Positions 33,602-54,651 of a stretch of 64,000 nt of DNA are shown here, piece after piece; the stretch's first letter is position 1, and each line of letters begins with the position of its first letter. The translations under genes and the position numbers were made by a program. The notes under the pieces were generated by a model. That model saw only the letters and a list, made by a program, of their open reading frames with translations. It searched no databases and was not told the DNA's origin. This DNA is from Ectocarpus siliculosus (taxonomy: Eukaryota > Sar > Phaeophyceae > Ectocarpales > Ectocarpaceae): assembly GCA_000310025.1 (NCBI GenBank), contig FN649727.1, positions 5,948,745 through 6,012,744 of the forward strand, written 5' to 3'.

Positions 33602-36600
33602 TTAGTACCCTCGCTCCCGGCGGAAGGCCTCGATGCTGTTTCGAAGAGCGTGGTTGGGCACCGCCATCTTGCTGTTGAGGTGCGCGTTGGACATAGGGCT
33701 GGTGTCGTGATTCCGCAACCAGGCCTCCAGTGCCCCGCGTTCGTAGCTGTGTCCGTCTTCGCAGACCACGGGATCGATCATCACCTGACGCGTCCATACC
33801 GTTACAAAAAGGAGGCGTTCAAGCGCGGGGGCGCAACAGGTGTTCCAGGGCACGCACGCGCGTCAGGGCTGGTAGTCTTTGTGTTTCAAACGCGCCACGA
33901 TCAACGCTCAACGGGTGGGGAAAGAGATGAGGCTCCCGGCCATGAAGTTAACCCTCCGTGTGGTACAAAAAGCAAGGGCTGCTACGTCAAAAGGCGATGC
34001 ATACCGTATGTACGGTTACGCATACCGTGTGTGTACGGTTACGCATACCGTATGTACGGTTACGCATACCGTATGTACGGTTACGCATACCGTATGTATG
34101 TTCCACTGTGGAACCATCCACGCCGGTTGAAACATCATGAACTAGAAAACAAGAGGTAGAAAATAACACCGACGCACAGGGTCGGTGTGTGGGGGTGGCG
34201 GTGATCGGAAGAAGAACAAGGTGGGCGTCGGCCCTCGTCGCTATTTGGACCCCTAGGCCGCATGCAGGCAGCCTTCCTGAGCTTGCGGGTTTGTCTCCTC
34301 GTATAAAATCGTCCGGGCAGGGCGTTTCGACCAAAACCTTCTGCAACAACATCCTGCGCGAAAACATGCTGACCACGAGGCTGTGCGACAAAACCGCGGC
34401 CCTCAAGAGATATCGGGCTCACTGCAAGCACAGCATACATGCCCAACGAACAACAACAACAATGACCGACACATCCAAAACACCCCCACTCACCCCCCCC
34501 CCAAAAAAAACAACCCCGCTCACCTCCAGAGTCAAGGGGCAGATAAAGTCCTGAGGGACGCCCTCATCCTCGTCCAACTCCGAAGGCGGGGCGCTTGGGG
34601 GCGCGCTCCCCGACATGACCATGTTCACCGGCGCCATGCTCGGAGCCGACCCGGAGACCCCTCCACCTGCCACCGAGGCCGCCACGGACGTTGGACCGCT
34701 TCCTGGAGCTCCAGCGCCTGTCGTATAGGTACAACCACGGCGTTTGATTTTTGCGAGGAGATCATTTTAGTACGACTGCTGCTGTGGTGGACAATTAAAC
34801 TATTACTCATATATGATACGAGCGTGCTGTTGCAGCGAAGTGATGGTGACTCGTCGTTCGCCGCCCACATTGAAAGCCTTGACGATTCATATTGAAAGCG
34901 TCAGGGGCACCAAATGAACGACGACAAAGCTCAAAGGCGCCGTACGGATCGTGTCGCCAGAGGAGATTCTGGCTGTCAGCGACAGGAACCGAGAAAGCAC
35001 ACCTTCTCATTCCCAATACGACAACCTAGACTGGAACTTCCTTCTCCACCACCTGAGGACTCGACCTTGCTTCATCTCCACCTCACCTTCCATGATGCCA
35101 AGAGCACGGATGGCGCGGTACTGGTCCGGCACCTCCGCGAGAGCAGACAGCGCCAGAGCTTCCGCGTCCCCGTACTTGAGCCGCCGGTGCTCCACGAACC
35201 GGAAGTTGTCGTACCGCCTGTCGACAGCATCATCGTCGTCAAGCACATCATCAACTAAATAATAATAAAAAACATCAACGACAAATACAATAAAAACACT
35301 ACAATAAGGACGGGAGAGCCTAGAGCGTTCACATGTCGCAACAAGGTGACGTTTCGTTGCGGACAGACAGTTACGACAGAAGACGATCAGGGCCGGGGGA
35401 ATGAGGAGGGGGGAGGTGAGTGCGGAGGCTAGATCAGGGCGGCGGGAAAACGGAAAATTAGAACAACCAAAGGTAGCAGCAGCGGCACCACCACCACCAG
35501 CCCAAGAAAAGTACAGCCGCCTGAGGGCGGTCTCATGGAATATGCCAACCGGGATTGATTCTTCCTCGCCACAACCTTCTCCCTTGCACAAGACCCTCCA
35601 AAAAGGAAGAGACCAAGCATTGCCAAAAGTACCGACACGCATGCAGCGTAGTGCAGTGCATGTCACGCTGTAGAGGGGAGGAGTGCGAGAGCTGGGCTGC
35701 TGCTGTTGCTGCTGTGATAGGTCGGATGACGGATGACGCACCTGCCGGGAAGTCGGTTGTCGAACTCTCGGCACGTTTCCCACGGGCCCTCCCCGACCCC
35801 GACCATGATGATGCTCAGGGGGTAGTTGGAGGCGTCCTGGATCGCTCTGACAGTATCGCGCTCTTTCGTCACCTGCAGTAGTACGCCAAACATCGGGGTC
35901 GCGCGGAACGGGAGAGGGGGGGGGGTTACTCATGTTTTGCATGCCCTAGTTATTAGACTATTGGCCACGCGTGTTCGAGAGGGTGGAGCATTGTTCCCAC
36001 TATACCGATCAACCATGGCCAATCAACCCTTCCTACTTTGCAAAAGGTGGCTCAAAATTGCTCTCGGAGCGGGCAACATCAGCAACGGCGTGCAGGCGCG
36101 TACATACGTCGGAGTCGAGTATGTTCCGATGGGATATGCATACGACGCCGCCGCCAAGCCTCAAGCAGTGGATGGGCCAGACGCCGCCAGCCAGCTAATC
36201 ACCTTAGCCCGTACATGCTGTCGGGCAGTCTTTAAAAAAAAAGTTGTTCGCGATCCGTCACCGAAGCCGGCTTGAGCTCTCACCAAAACAATCGAAAAAA
36301 ACCGCACCCGAGCCCCTCTTCCAAGCAAAACCCCCCAAAAATCTCTTCCCCCGCCTCCTGTTCGAAACGGAACCCCCGGTCTCTCACGCTACCCTGATCG
36401 ATTCACGGTGCCCCCCTCCCTAACAACTACCTCACGGTGCTAGAGTTTCGCGCTTGGTGATGTGAGAGCCTGGTCCGGTGAGAACCCGGCGTGCTTCGCC
36501 CCGGCTTTGTAGGGATGCGAGGTCAACGGTCTGACGACTACCTAAGGACGCGGGTCTTGGCACGGATCGGCTACATGGCACAGGCCGGGGTCTTGGCACG

Positions 36601-49080: not shown

Positions 49081-52000
49081 TTAGAACATACGGAACTGCT
49101 TCCGCACCGACACGGCCTGTCAGGCACGGAACACGCGCCGGAGAAACACAAAAAACAGGCGAACCGGGGGAGAAACGCGAAGGACGAGAAAAGAGAAGCT
49201 TAAATAAGAGAAAACGTGTGTCAGGAGTAAATTGAAACTCTGTGTAAGCGAGCGGGTCCGCCTAGGATACAGTGCATGGGGCAACCCAGCAACCCATTGG
49301 ATATGTAAATAAACCGCCGTGGTGTGTCCATTCCATTCGCCTTACCGGGTAGAACGAGAATGAAACTACGCCTGTAGTAGAGCAGTCATAAACCTCGTGT
49401 GGGTTCTCCCCTTGCCCGTCATCCCATTTTTGTGTCCACCTGTCTCTCTTGCCCCCGCCCCCCCTTCTCCGGTCATGTAATATATTAATTTCACTCCTGC
49501 TTGTCTCCCCGCCGGTTTGACTGGGTTTACTCACCGTGTTGATGCACGGCTCGTGCTCGAGCACGTTAAAGCGCACGGTCTTGGACAGAGGCCGGCACTG
49601 CCCGATCGTCACGATGTCGCCCTCCTTCACGTTTTGCCAGCAGGGAGCGCAGTGCACGGTCATGTTCTTGTGCCTCTTCTCGAAACTGGTGATCATCAAC
49701 CGCGCACGTTGGGAAAACAAAAATCAAGGTGAGTTGACCAAACCAGGGCGTCCACGAGGACGGGAATATTGGCGGGTAAACACAACGGACGATTCGACCG
49801 GTCCAATTCTCGACTTCATCGACATCTGCTGACCCCTGGGTGCAAGACAGGGAGTCAAGCGTGGCAACAACGGGAATCAATTTTTTTTACGCCCCGCCCT
49901 ACGCCTCTTTCAGGCCCAGGAGGCATCCTCCTGCTGACAAAAGGAACCCGTACAAACGCGGCTCAGGCTTCCCCGTCTTCATCCAGCAACTCATACACCA
50001 CAACTCCCATCAGCCATGACCAGGGCGCAGCCGTCTGTGTCACAAAATTTAGCTCACCCACACGCCTGTGTCGGTACACGCGCAATTGCCTCCCATCTAA
50101 GAACGTATGGACCCTACCCAACCCAACCGAAACGGCAACAAAGCCCGCAGCAGCGGCGGCGGGTGCACGCGCGCTTTGCTTACCGGCGGTACTTGGATAC
50201 GAAGTGCAGGTAGTCACGCCTGATGACGATGGTGTTGGTCATCTTGCCGGCGGAGATTACCAGGCCCTGGCGACAGACGGGGTGGATCGAAAAAAGGACG
50301 ATAAACATCAGAACCGAACACGCAAAAATGCTATAACCCAAGGACCCCTAAACTGTCGCGCCTGCAAGCATGCGCTATCCGCAGTAGTTGCTGGGCCTCT
50401 ACAGACAAGCGGGTTCTTCGAACAACAACAACACACAGACAGACAGACGGCAAGCAGCCTCTGTTGTTCCTTTGCCAAGAGCGAATCCCAGTCCATCTTC
50501 GTCATGTGCAGACGTCTCCATGCGTGTGTGTGGTGCGAGTTCCGCGAGCCTGCCGACTCGAGCTACACAAGCCAACCACGGACGCTACAAACTGGCGACG
50601 AAATTCACGCGAGCTTTCCATACTCCCTCAGGGAAGGCTTTGCATGAAAAGTGATGCAGCTGTTCATGGGTGGCCTCAGGGAAGGCTTTGCATGAAAAGT
50701 GATGCAGCTGTTCATGGGTGGGCAACAGCCAAGAACCCCAAACACAATCCCCGGTATGGTGGCCCCGCAGGCTTCGGTGGGCGGGCGCTGCTGCCGGGGG
50801 TGGGGGGCTCCTTCCAAGCATGCGCCAAAAGCAAATAAGAAAAATTTATGAATCACCTTGAGGATGCGGCCGCGGATGGACACGTCGCCCGTGAAGGGGC
50901 ACTTCTTGTCCACGTAGGTCCCTTCCCGCGCGGTCTTGGGGGTCTTGAAGCCGAGGCCGACGTTCTTCACGAACCGCATGCCCTTGCTCTGCGTCATCAG
51001 AGAGAAGAGGCGAGACAAGAACAGAGAAATGATCAGGGGGTCAGCGACAGCCAACGGATGGGTTGGAGGGTAAAATATGGGGCGACGCAACACACAAAAG
51101 GACATCAATAGAGTCATCCAATCAACTTCCTCTGCGGCCCTCTATCGAGGGAACCGACGGATTGGATGAAGAAAACCAATTTGACATCTGATGGAGGTTG
51201 TTCAACTGATAGCCGTGAACAAAGCAAGCACGTCTTTTCTCCTGAGAGCAACGACGATAATGTCCGTGAGCCGATGCGTGAGAGAGAGATGCGAAGCGGA
51301 GCAACCTCGACACAAAAAAGATAGGAGGGCGGGGTGTTCGCACCTCCCTACTCACACTTCGTGAATTATGAGGGGGGTGAGTTGGGGCAGGCGACAGCGT
51401 CGCCAACCTTACTCCGCAACACCAACTTACTGGAACAATGCGGGTGCCGCCATGGCAGGGTTAAGGGGCAAGGGCAGGAGATGGCACCAAGGCTCGGACA
51501 AAAAGCACGTTGTCTTCAAACAGCCCATAAGCTGATCTGAAACTCTAGTCCGTTCACTTCATTTCGTCATTGCCTTCCCTGCCTTCTGTTCTACACCTCC
51601 CGCTGTATAACATGGTACCGCAAGCATCTCGTCTATTATGCTTTTTGATGGAGAAACTGACCGACAAATCGATAACTACCTCAAGCTACTCTCGTACAAA
51701 AGCCGTCTTCCTACGCCACATCTTCCACAACAGACAATGCAATACCTCCCCACTATGCAGCAAGGCCCAACGAGAGGTCAAGCAAGCCTCGCGGGTGGGG
51801 CAACGTCGAGGGCCGTATTGGGGCACCAAGGCTCGGACGATAAGCACGTTGTCTTCAAACAGCCTCGAGGCTGATCTGAAACTCTAGTCCGTTTACTATA
51901 TTTCTTCACAGCCTTGGTTTCTATAGTTCGCCCATCAAACATCTCAGCTTCGTGTCACACCCCGCAATACCGCAAAAACTGCGCCAATGAAGGAGCCCGG

Positions 52001-54651
52001 CAAGCCAGCATCTCTCAAACTGGAGCCGTGTTCGTACGCAACGAAACTACGCTCTGTCGTAGATTCGAAAACCATTCTGCATTGTGTATGCATAGATGAA
52101 GCTGATTCTCACTCACAAAAAACCAGGGTCCAGTGATACACGCCGCTCCAAAAGCTACGCCGGCACAACCACGTGTGCTGCGTCAAGATATTCTACGCGG
52201 TAAGAAAGCTAAAACTACGCTACCTGGGGCGCCGGGCGTAAGGGCTCGGACAAAAAGCACGCTGTCTTCAAACAGCCGAGAGGCTGGTCTGAAACTCTAG
52301 TCCGTTTACTTCATTTCGTCATGGCCCCCCCTAATGCCCTCGGGCGCGCCCACGTAAAAAACCTCCACCTCCACCTTTGCCTTCGTCAGAACAATCAAGA
52401 TACCGATCAGCTTCTCTTCATGGCGAGACCTTACAACCAACAGCCATCGATACCGTTTCCGTAGATCCCACCCCCCAACACTTACCCGACCACATCAAAG
52501 TAAACCGCGCTGCGAAAACTCACACTGGGTGAGCTGGTGGGGCTTGTTAAGACACGCTGTCTTCGAACGGCTACAATAAGAGGCCGACGCAATACAACAC
52601 TGACGTAATGCTCTGATTTGCTGTTGTCTTTTAGACACGCAATCGCTTGTCACATCAAAGGGGTTTTGGTCGCTGCAGCTCTACAAACACCACATGCCTT
52701 GCACCAAATTACGACATTTCGTTTGACCGGCAAAGGGCCAAGAAAAAACATAGAGGGTACCGGTCTGCAAAGGCTCGGACAGCCAAGGGTTGTATCTTCA
52801 AACCCAGCATAAGCTGGTTTCAGAAACTCTAGTCCGTTTCATTTCGTCACCGCCAGCAGCCTTATGCCCCAAATTCAACTCCAACCCAATCATCGTCTCT
52901 TATTCCGGTCACGGGGTTGACGTCTGTGGATAAGATGCCACACCTCTATCCTTCCGAGCACCTACGCTACATCAGTGGAAGTGGCCTCGACGCAGTTGCG
53001 GAAATAACAAGGATATAAAGCTCCTATGGACAGGAGTAGACACAGGTGTACGAGGTTGGTGCACTACAGTGTAGTAGGTTCCCTCCCTCGATGGGGAAAG
53101 CAGCACAAAGCTATAGTGTACAAGGAGATGGACCTACTTGCCGGTAGACACGAAAGATAATACATGTATGTAGAAAAAACTTTTGTTCAAGTCGACTTTC
53201 CTCATTCGGCGAAATAGGAATGGCCTTGAGGCCAAGGCCCTCGAGTTTCGAAGCCATAACAGGCCCGCAATGCTCGCCAGAGAGAACACTACAGCAGTGC
53301 TCGATGTGCACGCTTGTTCCAGATGTTAACGAACGAACTATGGCTGACCATTCGAATTGGAGCAGTCTAGACTCGAAAGGCAGCAGGCGGCAGCTTGCGC
53401 TGGCAGGTAGAAACTCTTTTTTGAACAGTAACATAACCGTCTTACCAACGCGCGTGCTGCTTTTAGCATGGCAGCGGGGATGCCCCATCCCGCCTTGTTC
53501 CGGCACGTGTTGGGGTAACCAACACAGCATCGTTTCGGGAACACCCACCCGTCTGGTTCGATGAAGTTGCAGCACAGCTGGAACAGGTTTACCGAACTAC
53601 TGCCCTTCCCCTTGAAACCAGCAACGCAACTCTTTCGCGCGGGGGCTTACCTTGGCGACCTTCTTGCCGAGAACACGCTTCGCTCCCACAAAGATCGCAT
53701 CCTGCTTCTGGTACGCCTTCTCGTGCTGTGGGTGGGAAAAGTGGGCGCCAAGTACGGGCAACAACGGCGGTTGTTCCGAGTTACTTTGTTGGGTCGGTTT
53801 CGACATCACCATTCATGCTACGAAAAGAGCCACAGACGAGAGAAATGGGGCAGAAATCAAAACGGTCGTCCTGTGATGAAGGCAGGCGCGCCCAACGGTC
53901 GGACGTCGGGCTGGCAAAATGTTTCCATAATTCCCAGTTTTTACACTAGGTCGTAATGCATATGCATACGGTGGTACACTTCTGCTGTGTACATGCCGGT
54001 GGTTCCGTTTCAGACTAGTCTATGCAACGGGATAGTTGCGCAACGGATGGAAGGTCGGATACTGCTGAATAGTGTTGGACACAGAATAGAGAGCCAGCAT
54101 CATACAATTGTACACCTGCCGCGCGTCTTCTACCCAGCAGTCGTAGGAAAAGACATGACGCGCAGACGGAGTGTGGGAATGAGAGTGCGCCCCAGAGGCG
54201 GCGCAACCCACAGGCCCACGACTCATGACTGCTGTGACAACAACAAGCAAGGAACAACTACGTATTGAACAGCTTTTGTCTCCATTCACTCAGCTAGCTC
54301 CCTTGGAAGAGTGTTGCACGACGGTGTTAGGACCCTGATACGTCGCAGTCACAGCGATACAGCGATACAGAGCACTAGGCGACCCCACCGCGCGCTTTCC
54401 ACGCCACATCGTTCAGAGGGCTCCATTTCGAGGACTACATGGTCCAAAACACGATGGCCGTGTGCAAAGAACCATAGAGGGGTATGAGCAACAACGAGCA
54501 AGCCATCCACAAGCAGTGCTGTGCTCGAGGCAGACCGTCCATTGCCCGCGCTGCTCTCCCACGCCAAACACCACCCATACCCCTTGGCTACACAAGCGAG
54601 CCACCAACCAAAACGCACCTGTTCAGCCTCCCGGTAGTCCTGGAGTCCCAT
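49081..54651 (-). CDS. RPS11: 40S ribosomal protein uS17 (RPS11)
   Basis: Six minus-strand exons join in phase: 54651-54619, 53725-53651, 50988-50857, 50266-50184, 49685-49535 and 49116-49081 (169 aa; human RPS11 is 158). Recognisable blocks in order are [107 protein letters not shown] and the C-terminal VRKQFRMF. uS17 is an early-binding small-subunit protein that contacts 18S rRNA. The first exon is only 11 codons and the last 12 (stop included); both were found by homology and phase. The second intron (50989-53650, 2.7 kb) is unusually long and carries four diverged copies of a conserved hairpin module, and ribosomal-protein introns commonly host small RNAs. Confidence 0.95.
50626..50721. 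repeat. Perfect 48-bp tandem duplication
   Basis: Units 50626-50673 and 50674-50721 are identical (CCTCAGGGAAGGCTTTGC...). They lie in the third intron of the uS17 gene. Perfect identity points to a recent event or an assembly artefact. Confidence 0.9.
51484..51570 (+). ncRNA. Conserved intronic hairpin module, copy 1
   Basis: A block of about 87 bp repeated four times with unrelated DNA between copies. It has CTCGGAC near the 5' side and CTAGTCCG near the 3' side (CGGAC/GTCCG can pair), the block GTCTTCAAACAG, and an inner stem CAGC-CCATAA-GCTG. The strand is arbitrary: uS17 is transcribed from the minus strand, so an intron-derived RNA would be the complement, which keeps the same stems. 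Class unknown. Confidence 0.35.
51822..51909 (+). ncRNA. Conserved intronic hairpin module, copy 2
   Basis: Same layout as copy 1. The inner stem is CAGCCTCGAGGCTG, a perfect palindrome, although its bases differ from copy 1, so pairing is kept while sequence changes. The flank TCTGAAACTCTAGTCCG is identical to copies 1 and 3. Confidence 0.35.
52233..52320 (+). ncRNA. Conserved intronic hairpin module, copy 3
   Basis: Inner stem CAGCC-GAGA-GGCTG (5 bp with a tetraloop), preceded by GCTGTCTTCAAACAGC, which can form an alternative stem (GCTGT/ACAGC). The outer CGGAC/GTCCG pair is retained. A further partial copy (GACACGCTGTCTTCGAACGG) lies at about 52551. Confidence 0.35.
52763..52850 (+). ncRNA. 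Conserved intronic hairpin module, copy 4 (most diverged)
   Basis: Inner stem CCAGC-ATAA-GCTGG and outer CGGAC/GTCCG retained. The middle block is changed (GGTTGTATCTTCAAACCC), yet it still allows GGTT/AACC pairing. The 3' block AAACTCTAGTCCGTTTCATT is close to the other copies. Confidence 0.3.

Follow-up and report, generated by a model that had tools for sequence, protein, structure and literature searches.

Four repeats in a uS17 intron of Ectocarpus siliculosus match the box C/D snoRNA family RF00333, and three of them differ in the D-side arm

One intron within the analysed stretch of Ectocarpus siliculosus DNA (64,000 nucleotides; hereafter the window) carries four repeated blocks with paired segments, which raises the question of what kind of RNA these blocks encode. 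The original prediction had read them as hairpin modules and suggested, as an alternative to a structured repeat, that a ribosomal-protein intron here hosts a possibly new family of small RNAs whose pairing is preserved. Such a family was indeed recovered, in the form of RF00333 copies in the intron of uS17, and its class is not a new one, as Rfam already names it. The module very probably is the box C/D snoRNA RF00333, with one copy (D) being a complete double guide and three others (A, B and C) being local duplicates in which the D guide was lost or replaced. The repeats would belong to a known kind of housekeeping RNA that had been read on the wrong strand.

The host gene is defined by two exon pieces, which join into one unbroken reading frame once the intron is removed and give a match to Pfam Ribosomal_S17_N with E = 2.6e-33:

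53651..53728, minus strand: uS17 exon piece upstream of the intron, from translation and Pfam match
50989..53650, minus strand: uS17 (RPS11) host intron, 2,662 nt, GT...AG splice sites
50860..50988, minus strand: uS17 exon piece downstream of the intron, from translation and Pfam match

The snoRNA copies lie on the minus strand and thus run in the same sense as uS17. Downstream of the exon piece at 50860-50988, a perfect 48-bp tandem duplication is present at 50626-50721.

Reading of the sequence and self-comparison found the four blocks at the positions originally proposed, and the letters of the inner stems and the loops were read as described before. Copies A, B and C (51483, 51822 and 52235) are in register over 94 nt, with B and C being 86-87% identical to A, the first copy in register. 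Copy D (52765-52859) is more diverged and has two short blocks in common with A-C. The fragment suspected near 52551 exists as a decayed piece at 52549-52580 that aligns to A-C; its score was reached by 0, 1 and 0 of 500 shuffled sequences in comparisons with A, B and C, respectively, and by 268 of 500 in the comparison with D. The 200-nt flanks were without similarity in nine of twelve pairwise comparisons (44-194 of 200 shuffles scored as high), and in the remaining three 5, 9 and 15 of 200 shuffles scored as high as the observed similarity, which extended over at most 19 nt.

51486..51579, minus strand: copy A; RF00333 30.7 bits; D′ guide kept, D-side arm replaced
51825..51918, minus strand: copy B; RF00333 42.8 bits; D′ guide kept, D-side arm replaced
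52238..52331, minus strand: copy C; RF00333 33.3 bits; D′ guide kept, D-side arm replaced
52549..52580, minus strand: decayed copy fragment of the derived (A-C) type, from local alignment to the copies
52765..52859, minus strand: copy D, double guide with both ancestral guides; RF00333 58.6 bits, gathering score 55

All four copies matched RF00333 (snoZ157/R69/R10, a C/D snoRNA) over the full length of the model (positions 1-100) on the minus strand. Copy D exceeds the curated gathering score (58.6 vs 55 bits) and is a member of the family by this cut-off. Copies A, B and C stay below it (30.7, 42.8 and 33.3 vs 55 bits), and to judge from their sequences they appear to be derived paralogues of the family. 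Their E-values were 5.4e-7 (B), 0.00026 (C) and 0.0014 (A) in the search of the intron and 1.3e-5, 0.006 and 0.032, in the same order, over the whole window; as copy A is weak on its own at the latter value, its assignment rests on its likeness to the other copies. All five Rfam matches within the intron are on the minus strand. The model TtnuCD15, a Tetrahymena C/D snoRNA, weakly overlaps copy D (E = 0.11). Elsewhere in the window, weak Rfam matches that are probably due to chance were seen at 34002-34060 (mir-4012, 24.7 vs 80 bits) and 35259-35330 (CrcZ, 22.9 vs 95 bits).

A genome search with RF00333, in which 58 of 5,723 candidates received a score, found at least five places. Four are the copies of the window, and the fifth, copy E, lies on contig C18. 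Copy E scores 45 bits, below the gathering score, and contains the ancestral D guide. The word of the D′ guide occurs in the genome at exactly these five places and at none on the opposite strand. An ordinary repeat with many copies outside host introns is thus not what was found, four of the five copies being in the uS17 intron. Two reading frames scanned for a host gene of copy E gave no Pfam match above the cut-off. Beside copy E (L002, about 1565-1690) some 60 bp seem, by eye, to be duplicated in tandem as a second half-copy, which takes in box C and the terminal-stem strand of this copy. On viral contigs, the D′ guide word was found at 30 places, and a model trained on the five copies (R1) gave 21 matches at E ≤1, the best with 21.5 bits (E = 0.0068), while its own training copies score 73.9-109.8 bits. 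The viral matches of this model were taken as chance, as two of them inspected by eye did not exhibit snoRNA features. A search for snoR38 gave no match in the genome, which carries no weight as it was run without a positive control.

In the sense direction, the order of elements in the copies is terminal stem, box C, D′ guide, box D′, hairpin, box C′, D arm, box D and terminal stem. The original prediction had reported no C/D box pair, but it had examined the plus strand, whereas gene and RNAs are on the minus strand. There, box C can be read as UGACGA, box D′ as CUGA or CAGA, box C′ as UGAAGA and box D as CCGA. Box C departs from RUGAUGA by one base, with GUGAAGA in copy B and RUGACGA in the other four. 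Box D′ reads CUGA in D and E but CAGA in A-C; for box C′, A-D share UGAAGA and E has UGCAGA. A terminal stem core of GGC/GCC is found in all five copies.

Box D is CCGA in all five copies, where CUGA is canonical, with the GA being kept and the U changed, which is a point against the assignment. This notwithstanding, copy D passes the Rfam cut-off, and the partner base in box C is also a C in four of the five copies. Two U14-like loci read by eye (of four matches, all below the family cut-off) and two U3 loci read by eye (of four) keep CUGA, which suggests that the change to CCGA is not general in this genome. Together with box C, this box D would presumably turn the U-U pair of the kink-turn into C-C in the four copies with UGACGA and into A-C in the fifth. 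A reading which combines amplification of a double-guide snoRNA, gain of a shared new D-side guide in three copies and a C-C kink-turn that could, by the published 3b/3n rule, fold free of protein appears improbable to us.

Both guides of copy D were located, and the word of its D′ guide recurs in the other window copies:

52779..52789, minus strand: D guide of copy D in its ancestral form, which makes 11 Watson-Crick pairs with LSU rRNA; D+5 is the equivalent of C2366
52823..52835, minus strand: D′ guide core of copy D; D′+5 is the equivalent of U2422
51539-51551 (A), 51878-51890 (B) and 52291-52303 (C), minus strand: the same D′ guide word, from a word search

The D′ guide is kept in all five copies and the D guide to the C2366 equivalent in D and E only. 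The sequence used for the target comparison was a foreign eukaryotic LSU contig from among MAG records (L019) and not Ectocarpus rRNA. On this LSU, the D guide of copies D and E matched over 11 nt with no mismatch, and two of 100 shuffled guides were as good in each case. The D′ guide matched over 10 nt with one G-U pair, which 28 and 26 of 100 shuffles equalled; as this match is not significant alone, it is homology together with the 56-nt spacing on which the D′ site rests. In the foreign LSU, the predicted +5 nucleotides fall on a C (position 2734) and a U (position 2790), which gives a spacing of 56 nt.

For the LSU of Ectocarpus itself, an exact pattern search on the genome gave no match and an intact gene was not found; an LSU query returned nine dispersed pieces of 35 to 253 bp:

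contigs C78, C10, C25, C2, C229, C340, C21, C5 and C22: the nine dispersed LSU rRNA pieces

Of the three pieces that were cut out, a degenerate one retains the core of the D target, another continues into N, and the last stops short of the site. A pattern scan for 18S rRNA found no place. Two isolated 5.8S-like sequences above the Rfam cut-off are present (L015 2339-2480 and L016 2270-2432), and 7,001 bases around each of them held no other Rfam match at gathering level. The exact D′ target word also occurs on a viral contig, L018, which was set aside as the neighbouring LSU word is absent from it. Eukaryotic LSU sequence was also seen in records labelled as bacterial MAGs and on one viral contig (L019, L020, L021 and L017), likely due to contamination or chimeras.

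The two predicted sites can be compared with those of a characterized snoRNA. Arabidopsis SnoR37 is assigned to C2366 and U2422, 56 apart (PMC8053127, Table 1), and the spacing predicted here equals the one in this table. In the other numbering used in PMC6461891, SNOR37 is placed at LSU U2411 and C2355, which are likewise 56 apart. As both predicted sites and the 56-nt spacing agree, we infer that RF00333 is, by its targets, Arabidopsis SnoR37, although none of the sources consulted makes this equation. Against this equation stands the Rfam name, which says R69/R10; Arabidopsis SnoR69Y and SnoR10 are given at other sites, C2949 and U2651, in PMC8053127. The copies described here share the D′ guide and the hairpin between D′ and C′ with RF00333/SnoR37, and D and E share the D guide as well. 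The differences from RF00333 are the changed D-side arm of copies A-C, whose scores also stay under the gathering level, and the CCGA of box D in all five.

The same LSU U is listed for human SNORD52 in PMC6461891, and for the Neurospora U site snR78, snoR37 and U52 are listed in PMC2780460. The likeness to human SNORD52, yeast snR78, Neurospora CD5 and GtNM-R6 of the Guillardia nucleomorph concerns this listed U only. According to the same two papers (PMC6461891, PMC2780460), CD5 and GtNM-R6 use the D′ side for this U, as is the case here, and CD5 is described there as pairing this guide with a different D guide.

The most probable scheme for the locus would be as follows. The snoRNAs would be part of the uS17 intron in its sense orientation and be released from it by trimming. 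Copy D would then direct 2′-O-methylation of the 25S/28S U equivalent to Arabidopsis U2422 by its D′ guide and of the C equivalent to C2366 by its D guide. Copies A, B and C would have arisen by local duplication, with the D′ guide and the hairpin between D′ and C′ being retained and the D guide being lost or replaced, and one further copy would have decayed. The direction of this change is suggested by D and E sharing the ancestral D guide with the Rfam consensus, and duplication followed by loss of the D guide is the most economical reading. On the basis of their sequences, A-C most likely act as extra guides for U2422.

The two guide regions have changed to very different extents. Over 14 columns of the D′ guide, no difference was observed among A-D and one versus E. 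Over 15 columns of the D arm, A-C differ from D and E in 9-11, and among each other in two (A and B), one (A and C) and three (B and C).

51498..51513, minus strand: derived D-side arm of copy A, from sequence comparison of the copies

The core of this arm, common to A-C, could reflect selection, and it could be that the D arm in its new form directs methylation of a further RNA, such as a species-specific rRNA site, an snRNA or an mRNA, besides the U2422 site. With one to three of 15 columns changed among the three copies, with part of the arm present in the decayed copy and with the letters of box D identical in all copies, such a re-targeting deserves to be weighed, but we consider it unlikely. 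The comparison covered the foreign LSU (L019), U2 (one of nine matched loci), U6 (the sole match) and the host pre-mRNA, and no match of a derived arm stood clearly above shuffles: on the LSU 9 (A), 17 (B) and 29 (C) of 100 shuffled arms were as good, and for the other three RNAs the counts ranged from 14 of 100 to 188 of 200, so that the lowest counts were 9/100 (A, LSU) and 14/100 (C, pre-mRNA). Moreover, B departs from A and C at the D-proximal positions which would set the target. An earlier and looser comparison of the arms, without shuffles, had used L017, L020 and L021. Two candidate matches were set aside. An 8-nt match of the D arm of copy E to U6 (9 of 200 shuffles) was given no weight, as it lies 10-17 nt from box D, and a supposed short similarity between the arms of A and C and a conserved part of 18S was not taken further, as copy B breaks it. 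In A and C the D arm can also pair with the copy's own spacer between C and D′, which in A-C has 4 nt that are absent from D and E. If this modelled pairing forms, the arm could be structural.

Low family scores, the changed D arm, the degenerate D′ box (CAGA) and a decayed copy nearby would also fit with A-C being pseudogenes without a product and copy D alone being functional. We regard this as quite unlikely, as the changes in A-C are not spread evenly: boxes D′, C′ and D and the D′ guide are unchanged, the spacer, the hairpin and the strands of the terminal stem vary, and stem and hairpin nevertheless still pair, in some cases by compensated changes.

The proposal that pairing is kept while letters change stands for this stem and hairpin, with moderate covariation support from five related copies. 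Terminal stem and inner hairpin were paired in 80% of cells over the five copies on the sense strand, and 5 of 13 pairs have changed on both sides. The observed percentage of pairing was reached by 39 of 500 shuffles, the number of pairs changed on both sides by 26 and that of cells so changed by 27; for the covariation score and the number of pair types, 18 and 189 shuffles came as high. Versions of the structure slid along the alignment were lower on every measure. The alignment was fitted to the tested structure, with the hairpin of copy D being out of register, so that the hairpin is under-counted in these figures. The inner stem originally noted corresponds to the hairpin that the Rfam model already has between D′ and C′. 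The outer CGGAC/GTCCG is present, letter by letter, in all four window copies, but it probably does not form a helix. It was rejected as a conserved element, since its two halves are explained as the edge of box D and the D′ guide, and copy E has lost the outermost pair (TGGAC).

Free-energy z-scores were -1.9, -3.7, -1.7, -1.0 and -2.0 for A to E on the sense strand and -1.0, -3.8, -0.7, -2.5 and -1.2 on the plus strand; the folding energy thus does not decide the strand. To a new structured intronic RNA class or structured repeat transcribed from the plus strand we give next to no credence, and a new plus-strand hairpin family was rejected: the plus strand folds as well, in particular in copies B and D, but the Rfam matches in the intron are all on the minus strand, guides and boxes are readable there only, 35, 46 and 32 of 200 shuffles fold as well as A, C and E on the plus strand, and the copies in the genome, by the lower bound of the family search, are few.

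As a box C/D snoRNA cluster, the locus can be placed among known arrangements. Intronic snoRNA clusters with several snoRNA genes per host gene are described for rice and Drosophila, and for chicken, cis-duplicated paralogues which vary in sequence and maintain guide regions and structure (PMC2780460, PMC2653536). Unlike in these cases, four copies of one family reside here in a single ribosomal-protein intron. Duplication with loss of one guide is a known route; for snR72/snR78 in Neurospora, splitting of a double guide by duplication and specialisation is one of two possible histories offered in PMC2780460. The uS17 intron may thus offer a snapshot of guide loss, in which a gene with both guides intact stands side by side with three derivatives that have one guide and with the remnant of a decayed copy.

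Ectocarpus snoRNA loci were earlier predicted by CDseeker and ACAseeker, as stated in PMC4513859, and among the listed matches from the literature on snoZ157, snoR69, snoR37 and Ectocarpus or brown-algal snoRNAs, in the parts available, no description of the uS17-intron cluster was found. In PMC5122169, snoR37 is among the families conserved in land plants, and green algae are said to have no identifiable homologues of land-plant snoRNAs except U14 and snoR96. Neighbouring pairs of U14-like sequences below the cut-off were seen in the Ectocarpus genome at C16:6159731-6160803 and C61:76874-77570 (957 and 582 nt from start to start), which suggests that local duplication of snoRNAs may be common in this genome.
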